Assembly: GCA_018054835.1 (NCBI GenBank)
Contig: JAGPIS010000003.1
Coordinates: 1 to 32,120, forward strand
DNA: 32,120 nucleotides
Direction: 5' to 3'
Source: Breznakibacter sp.
GTDB lineage: Bacteria > Bacteroidota > Bacteroidia > Bacteroidales > Marinilabiliaceae
The translations under genes were made by a program, and so were the position numbers. The notes beneath the pieces were generated by a model. That model worked only from the letters and a program-made list of their open reading frames with translations, was not told where the DNA came from and ran no database searches. Numbering within the stretch: the first letter of the stretch is position 1; each line of letters starts with the position of its first letter. Below, in pieces: positions 8,732 to 10,086 of the stretch.

Positions 8732-9670
8732 ATGAGAAATAGAATACCCACCAAACTACTAATAGCCGTCACCATAATGAGTTCGATCTTTACTCAACAG
8801 GTTCTGGAAGCACAAAATAGTGTCATAGACCTATATCCCAAAGGGAGAATGCCTAACACCATTGCAACGGAAATTGCAGAAAAATGGGACTCCACGGATA
8901 TATTGAGGATAAGCCAAGTAACCAACCCCAATATTGCCGTTTTTCTTCCATCGCCTAAAAATGCCACAGGCGAAGCAATTGTCATTTACCCCGGAGGAGG
9001 TTATAGCATTCTTGCCTACGATTGGGAAGGCACCGACATTGCGAAATACTGGAACGCCAAAGGGGTGGCTGCCATCGTGTTGAAATACCGGCTCCCTGAC
9101 ATGGCCAACCATCGCGAATCGTGGCAATACCCACTCCTGGATGCCCAACGTGCCTTAAGAATGGTTCGTTTCCATGCCAAAGAATGGAACATCCATCCGG
9201 ATAAGGTTGGCATCATGGGATTTTCTGCCGGCGGTCACTTGGCCTCCTCGCTTTGCACCCACAACGATCTAGGGAATCCAAATTCCACAGACCCTGTGGA
9301 GCAAATCAGCTGCATACCCGATTTCGCCATGCTCATTTACCCCGTTATTTCATTTACAGAACCTTACCAACACGCCGGATCGCACAAGAATTTGCTTGGC
9401 GAGAATCCTGATCCAGCGCAATCATTATTCTTTTCAAGCGAAATGCAAGTAACCTCGCAAACTCCACCCACCATCCTAATCCATGCCTCCGACGACACGG
9501 GTGTTCCGGTTGAAAACAGCATCGCCTATTATCGCGCCTTACTGAAACACAACATCCCTGCAGAACTCCATATTTATCCATACGGGCAACACGGTTTTGG
9601 CCTAGCGATTGGGAAAGGTTACCTTTCCAGTTGGCCGGAAAGGTGTTATGATTGGTTGAAGGGGCTATAA
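8732..9670 (+). CDS. Exported alpha/beta-hydrolase esterase (BD-FAE / acetylxylan-esterase-like)
   Basis: Serine hydrolase of 312 residues, probably a carbohydrate esterase removing acetyl or similar groups from glycans. Many relatives carry the misleading name endo-1,4-beta-xylanase B. A signal peptide is visible (MRNRIPTKLLIAVTIMSSIF..., likely cut near LEAQ at about 29), so it acts outside the cytoplasm. The oxyanion region is YPGGGYSIL, the nucleophile elbow is GFSAGG (Ser165), the acid is in HASDDTGVP (Asp254 or Asp255) and the catalytic His is in GQHGFG (His287). The fold order is complete. It follows the aldehyde dehydrogenase by 36 bp. A minus-strand frame (9354-9953) overlaps its last 317 bases; the esterase is the real gene there, judged by its motifs. 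Confidence 0.93.
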   Translation: MRNRIPTKLLIAVTIMSSIFTQQVLEAQNSVIDLYPKGRMPNTIATEIAEKWDSTDILRISQVTNPNIAVFLPSPKNATGEAIVIYPGGGYSILAYDWEGTDIAKYWNAKGVAAIVLKYRLPDMANHRESWQYPLLDAQRALRMVRFHAKEWNIHPDKVGIMGFSAGGHLASSLCTHNDLGNPNSTDPVEQISCIPDFAMLIYPVISFTEPYQHAGSHKNLLGENPDPAQSLFFSSEMQVTSQTPPTILIHASDDTGVPVENSIAYYRALLKHNIPAELHIYPYGQHGFGLAIGKGYLSSWPERCYDWLKGL

Positions 9671-9953
9671 ACAGATGAAACAAGGCTGAGAGACCGGCAA
9701 AAAAGAGATATCGTAAATTCCAAACAAAGAGAACGTTTGCAAAACTTTCAAAGGCTTTTGGAGATTCTAAATCAAGGTATTTCAGCACGGTTTCTTCGTT
9801 CAGGTCGGCGAACTCCTTGGCGGAGACGAATTGGAGGGGCTGCTTGCCCAACTGTTTCCGCAGCAGGCGCAGGATTCGGTGGCCGGTTTTGAGGCTCTTA
9901 CCGGTGATGCGCTTGATGTACTTGGCGTATATGCAAATCCTCTGCTGTTTCAT
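9354..9953 (-). CDS. Small basic helix-turn-helix-like protein; 3' part reads antisense into the esterase
   Basis: From the ATG at 9953 the first 65 or so residues look like a genuine small Bacteroidota protein: MKQQRICIYAKYIKRITGKS, a basic helical stretch (TGHRILRLLRKQLGKQ), then FVSAKEFADLNEETVLKYL. From memory, this resembles a family of short (roughly 70-90 residue) proteins with a probable DNA-binding helix-turn-helix, but I know no assigned function. The frame then continues without a stop through 9671-9770 and into the antisense of the esterase, ending at 9354. The C-terminal 110 or more residues look like accidental coding, so the native stop was probably lost at a rearrangement. An ATG at 9986 would add 11 residues but overlaps the 11-bp repeat array, so I prefer 9953. 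Translation past about 9755 is doubtful. Confidence 0.5.
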   Translation of the reverse strand: MKQQRICIYAKYIKRITGKSLKTGHRILRLLRKQLGKQPLQFVSAKEFADLNEETVLKYLDLESPKAFESFANVLFVWNLRYLFFAGLSALFHLFIAPSTNHNTFPANWKGNLSQSLGQNRVARMDKYGVLQGCCVSVRRDNRRCCFQPEHPCRRRHGLGWWVEFARLLAFRLKRIMIALDQDSRQANSCAIRRVGKVL

Positions 9954-9973: not shown

Positions 9974-10050
9974 ATACACCATCCATACTGTAATTATACT
10001 TTATCTATACCGTATGTATACTGTATCTATACCTGAACCATACCTAAAGT
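9974..10050. repeat. Seven degenerate 11-bp tandem repeats (ATACnnnAnnn)
   Basis: ATAC begins at 9974, 9985, 9996, 10007, 10018, 10029 and 10040, exactly every 11 bp. In all seven units the eighth base is also A; the consensus is close to ATACTGTATCT. The array lies 21-97 bp upstream of the small minus-strand gene at 9953. It could be a phased operator for a DNA-binding protein, a decayed minisatellite, or intrinsically bent DNA. No such array is seen elsewhere in the window. Confidence 0.85.
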
Positions 10051-10086
10051 GTGGTTTTGGGTGCCAGTTTGGATGGCTCCGTAGCC

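Follow-up and report, generated by a model that had tools for sequence, protein, structure and literature searches.

A phased 11-bp GTAT array as the candidate operator of a small helix-turn-helix-like protein gene in Bacteroidota

To our knowledge, few bacterial regulators read direct repeats that lie one helical turn apart. BldC of Streptomyces, a helix-turn-helix (HTH) protein of 68 residues, occupies a variable number of direct repeats over promoters, one protomer per repeat and head to tail; it is a MerR-like winged HTH protein and a global regulator, with the repeat AATTXXXX(C) of approximately 9 bp (PMC5859096). According to a second account, the protomers of the filament that BldC forms on smeA-sffA are one DNA turn apart (PMC11963761). 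The small HTH excisionases RdfS and lambda Xis also oligomerise along DNA, and they drive excision (PMC11963761). Here we analyse a phased array of direct repeats in a 32,120-nucleotide stretch of Breznakibacter sp. DNA (the window) and its counterparts in related genomes. Judged from sequence, the array most probably serves as the phased operator of a small HTH regulator, the companion of an undescribed Bacteroidota module.

The array in the window and before homologous genes

The following features of the window are referred to throughout.

9974 to 10050, minus strand: GTAT-N7 array of seven units with an exact 11-bp period (ATAC on the plus strand); candidate operator and leader of the gene starting at 9953.
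10044 to 10051, minus strand: CACTTTAG, adjoining the array on its upstream side and differing by one mismatch (T to C) from the -7 box TAnnTTnG of Bacteroidota; weak.
9765 to 9953, minus strand: small HTH-like protein, conserved part MKQQRICIYAKYIKRITGKSLKTGHRILRLLRKQLGKQPLQFVSAKEFADLNEETVLKYLDLE, assigned by homology; family members end at the position that corresponds to 9765.
9354 to 9764, minus strand: read-through extension of the small open reading frame, antisense into the esterase gene at 8732-9670; absent from relatives.

A preliminary description of the window had reported seven ATACs on an exact 11-bp grid, the eighth base of each unit being always A and the other positions variable, just upstream of a gene for a small DNA-binding-like protein, and these observations were confirmed. 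ATAC occurs at 9974, 9985, 9996, 10007, 10018, 10029 and 10040, a step of exactly 11 bp, and is found nowhere else between 9901 and 10100; base 8 of the unit is A in seven of seven units, and the small gene starts at 9953 on the minus strand. When all periods from 5 to 30 were scanned, the array was the longest ATAC chain of the whole window, while among 100 copies of the window generated by a first-order Markov model the longest chain had 2 members in 99 copies and 3 in one. Tandem Repeats Finder detected only the middle of the array (9981-10032, 11 bp, 73% matches). The four-unit array pattern was found at no second site in the 1.95-Mb draft genome containing the window, and a reversed control pattern gave no match.

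Read in the direction of the small gene, on the minus strand, the units are GTATGGTTCAG, GTATAGATACA, GTATACATACG, GTATAGATAAA, GTATAATTACA, GTATGGATGGT and GTATCAAAACG, and the constant eighth A corresponds to the T of the consensus AGAT on that strand. The seven GTATs extend from 10043 to 9974 and the spacer of the last unit reaches 9967; the last GTAT begins 24 bp ahead of the start codon at 9953, leaving a gap of 20 bp between the array end at 9974 and the start. The spacers following the ATACs are all different (ACCATCC, TGTAATT, TTTATCT, CGTATGT, TGTATCT, CTGAACC and CTAAAGT). Because they differ from unit to unit, a fresh tandem duplication was rejected as the origin of the array, in line with the earlier reading of selective conservation.

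A bend had been put forward as an alternative to protein binding. The array is AT-rich and phased close to the helix repeat, as this reading would have it, but the letters kept from unit to unit are GTAT rather than A-tracts, and the predicted curvature is ordinary: calculated with wedge parameters, it was 27, average for the window, compared with 34 +/- 18 in shuffled sequences (62% of which reach 27) and 121 for phased A5 tracts by the same method. An intrinsic DNA bend was therefore rejected, and we regard it as scarcely credible.

The search of related genomes that had been suggested as a check revealed the same ATACnnnAnnn (GTAT-N7) array directly upstream of homologs of the small gene in other genera. 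In a sample of 45 non-redundant loci, with a unit counted as G(T/C)AT at period 11, at least two units were found upstream of the gene in 33 loci and at least three in 21. Three units were never reached at periods 7-10 and 12-16 in these loci, and random segments from the same loci gave two units in 17 of 1604 cases and three in 0 of 1604. The four-GTAT pattern matched at the gene in 7 of 61 genomes, the window's included, and in each of them nowhere else. The array is real, non-random and conserved across Bacteroidota families and orders.

Derived from 100 units in 33 loci, the family consensus unit is GTATAGATAAA, in which conservation of the spacer letters reaches 64-76%; that of the GTAT core is not independent evidence, since units were sought by this core. 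Spacers in the window fit this consensus almost as closely as the family's own spacers do, and the window array, with seven perfect GTATs, is the longest and cleanest of the gene-linked arrays seen. A clear array was absent in 12 of the 45 loci, among them solo genes fused to other sequence (L038 and L042) and some loci that keep the partner operon described below (L107).

Arrays without the small gene were also detected, four in one Flavobacterium-type genome (G128) and one in another (G081), including the following.

L177, 7391 to 7493: ten near-identical units GTATAGATAGT, one of the four gene-less arrays of G128, approximately 130 bp before a topoisomerase gene.

Linkage between array and gene, which held before homologs across genera, is therefore very strong yet not absolute.

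Minisatellites typically have near-identical units, free changes in copy number and no gene linkage, and the array shows none of these. Period-11 GTAT minisatellites with unrelated spacers do exist in other relatives (G023 and G053), which would favour a neutral minisatellite that lies here by chance. Against this, unit, place and gene are the same across families and orders, the window contains no fresh duplication, and copy number is stable rather than freely variable, with 89 of 147 pairs of close relatives having equal numbers of units and 53 of 147 differing by one. We consider a neutral minisatellite very improbable.

The small protein and the promoter register of the array

The small protein has approximately 65 residues and belongs to an HTH-like family without a name. 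Its N-terminus in the window is MKQQRICIYAKYIKRITGKS, and it shares 69% identity over 51 residues with a Marinilabilia homolog; another ATG further upstream, at 9986, falls within the array and does not line up with the starts of family members. Neither Pfam nor NCBIfam has a family for the protein, and PHROGs likewise names none. Among 39 family members, HTH_17 was matched by eight (best E 0.0033) and MerR by one (0.0033), all weakly, and weak matches to HTH_3 and Sigma70_r4_2 had similar scores. A structural model of the Marinilabilia homolog (pLDDT 91) contains four helices (residues 10-17, 21-35, 45-52 and 56-63), arranged as two HTH-like pairs, and two very short strands. Compared with solved structures, the model gave no significant match in a fold search (best Z 3.9, AcrIIA1), nor did the sequence match those of solved structures significantly. 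The confident model with two HTH pairs, together with the weak HTH-type family matches, makes it likely that the small protein binds DNA.

With dN/dS of 0.02-0.15 in 14 pairs, the family is under strong purifying selection. Of 61 genomes sampled among relatives, 19 have the gene (a count that includes the window's genome), as do 14 of 198 genomes sampled phylum-wide; a larger genome collection held at least 443 loci, the best 80 of which were fetched for study. Viral contigs and phage records contained no relative of the protein, and among plasmid records one Marivirga record was matched in the relative search.

Several observations concern the surroundings of the gene. Fic-family genes adjoin or directly precede it at L175:9051-10640, L176:1605-3182, L059 and L111 (Pfam match checked for L059 and L175 only). 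Downstream of it, a possible small RNA unit was seen at L039:6480-6700, L043, L040, L071 and L105, consisting of a -7 box followed by 100-130 nt with conserved stretches (AACGAATGAGAACAAAATGGTGAACA), at whose end stand TTCGAATCC...GGATCACA, which resembles the 3' end of a tRNA, and a terminator hairpin; it has no match in Rfam. Rfam searches returned nothing in the window and only sub-threshold matches in five module loci.

In Flavobacterium psychrophilum the -7 box TAnnTT(A/T)G lies at -12 to -5 (PMC9723704). Ten exact copies of this box were found in the 66 bp before the array at 33 loci, compared with a mean of 2.7 in shuffles (fraction reaching ten, 0.0005), and seven of the ten share one phase modulo 11, as did none of 2000 shuffles. 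At some loci the box sits within a unit (GTATATTAGAA in L052, GTATCTTAGAA in L060). The array keeps a fixed register with the sigma-A -7 box. With the box at -12 to -5, the array would begin at about +1 and span the start site and the leader, where a bound protein would keep RNA polymerase out; it is chiefly on this account that the array is read as an autoregulatory operator. Taken together, these findings make it probable that the array is the operator of the very gene that encodes the small protein. Against this reading stand the gene-less arrays, the loci without a clear array, the model's lack of a significant match among solved structures, and the altered residues, lost stop and poor promoter of the window copy. 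The small protein would occupy the array units of its own promoter (we infer both the binding and its stoichiometry on the units), and occupancy of units running from the -7 box over the start site and leader would block the promoter, resulting in autorepression. The divergent partner operon may share control from the same intergenic region.

It is also conceivable, though quite unlikely, that the array acts as a leader-RNA element, in which repeated GUAU in the 5' leader is bound by the small protein or another factor and controls translation. The array does lie within the presumed transcribed leader, and at many loci of flavobacteria the start codon follows directly on the last GTAT (GTATNATG). 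However, a pitch of exactly 11 bp corresponds to a full turn of duplex DNA, and nothing evident would call for it in RNA; the register also takes in the -7 box, an untranscribed element.

A long, conserved inverted repeat, TTAAAATATTGATAACAC..GTGTTGTCAACATTTTAA, was observed in flavobacterial intergenic regions (e.g. L063:5885-5935); two of its pairs are changed on both sides, and it may be a second operator or an RNA hairpin.

The divergent partner operon, breakpoints and the window copy

Among the best 80 of at least 443 loci, 70 have a divergent gene across the intergenic region that encodes a protein of approximately 250 residues starting MA(K/R)Q; DUF5675-type and related small genes are added in 52 of these 80 loci and a membrane protein of approximately 70 residues in 45. 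This operon, conserved and undescribed, occupies approximately positions -150 to -2300 relative to the small gene (L036-L115). In other groups of loci an amidase or a GH108 hydrolase takes the place of DUF5675, the hydrolases of the operon being DUF5675, Amidase_2 and GH108. One representative of the small membrane proteins matched a holin PHROG (E 2.5e-7), and others did so weakly. The operon looks lysis-like in its predicted gene content.

The 250-residue protein is encoded by the first and most conserved gene of the operon. It has no Pfam family, no PHROGs family, no sequence relative in the PDB and no relative among 50,697 phage records. Its model contains a C-terminal beta-sandwich, for which a fold search returned generic beta-sandwich matches only, none of them trustworthy, and no paper was found under DUF6266, a name guessed for the protein. 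All 17 sampled genomes with the 250-residue protein also carry the small gene, and only 2 of 19 small-gene genomes are without its gene, namely that of the window and another that is cut off by contig ends. This near-complete co-occurrence argues that the two genes belong together. In one genome (G009, MAG16; L049, L050, L054, L057, L061 and L078) the small gene is present in at least ten copies or fragments, several of them stop-broken and some in tandem, and the partner in eight.

The junction between array and gene is a recurrent breakpoint, which raises the alternative that the array is a recombination or mobile-element site: the small protein would be excisionase-like and form a filament on repeats near an insertion site, with the array end as the breakpoint. 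Where the array is missing, foreign sequence comes first and the gene begins at about codon 2 (L038 and L042), and gene-less arrays stop within the first codons. Partner operon and gene are split by insertions in G012 (20 kb) and G027 (a Fic gene), IS3-like elements (rve_3) end tens of base pairs before the array at five Flavobacterium-type loci, and 9 of the best 80 of at least 443 loci have a tyrosine recombinase in the vicinity of the gene. Most loci, on the other hand, have no recombinase, a search for bounding tRNA genes or direct repeats around the module found none that were convincing, and the array is locked to a promoter element, which is not required of an att site. We consider a recombination site unlikely, and retain an operator of the small gene as the preferred reading. 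The IS3-like ends by the array (L178, L179, L180, L182 and L183) look as if the array region attracts insertion. Several gene-less arrays adjoin IS3-like ends or a broken copy of the 250-residue protein gene and are best read as remnants, while the one before the topoisomerase gene could be a target in trans.

In the window, the 250-residue partner was found neither in the stretch itself nor in its draft genome (72% complete, so that absence is not proved), and the neighbours are instead an esterase, a small open reading frame without a family and a PfkB kinase. D12, Q14 and G53, invariant in 39 relatives, are replaced in the window protein by Y, K and a deletion; the family stop is lost, and reading continues to 9354. 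The promoter of the window copy has no exact -7 box, and no matching -33 element was seen. Its small gene looks worn, or at least strongly diverged, in sequence; the array itself is not worn. As the partner was not found and the regulator gene is eroded, the window copy is read as a solo, possibly decaying, descendant of the module.

Comparison with known systems

Like phage lysis cassettes and systems of holin-based protein release (PMC9527704, PMC10101115), the partner operon has a wall hydrolase together with small membrane proteins that are partly holin-like; it differs from them in being led by the 250-residue protein, which lacks Pfam, PHROGs and PDB matches. The array provides a sharp candidate operator for a protein family unnamed in Pfam, NCBIfam and PHROGs, with at least 443 loci, and points to an adjoining conserved module of undescribed purpose. 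We tentatively suggest, as a possibility that goes well beyond the operator itself, that an undescribed regulator family reads the phased array of 11-bp units by forming a head-to-tail filament and in this way silences an undescribed chromosomal lysis- or release-type module (250-residue protein, wall hydrolase and small membrane proteins) common to many Bacteroidota, the window holding a switch that has outlived its module.

Whereas RdfS has no clear consensus motif (PMC11963761), the motif here is sharp and locked to a promoter. By analogy, BldC offers the closest known way of working: in both cases, a small HTH or HTH-like protein is associated with direct repeats at helical spacing in a promoter. 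The unit here, however, is GTATAGATAAA, of 11 bp, and not the BldC consensus AATTXXXX(C) of approximately 9 bp; the model, with its four helices, lacks a three-stranded wing; and the array goes with a single gene, unlike the targets of a global regulator. Because the repeat is unlike that of BldC, the sequence matches are weak and no fold match is significant, we propose that the small protein may work like BldC, and do not claim that it is a BldC. If so, it would be a second reader of direct repeats at one-turn spacing, with a repeat of its own and without clear kinship to BldC, and would show how general this mode of DNA recognition is.
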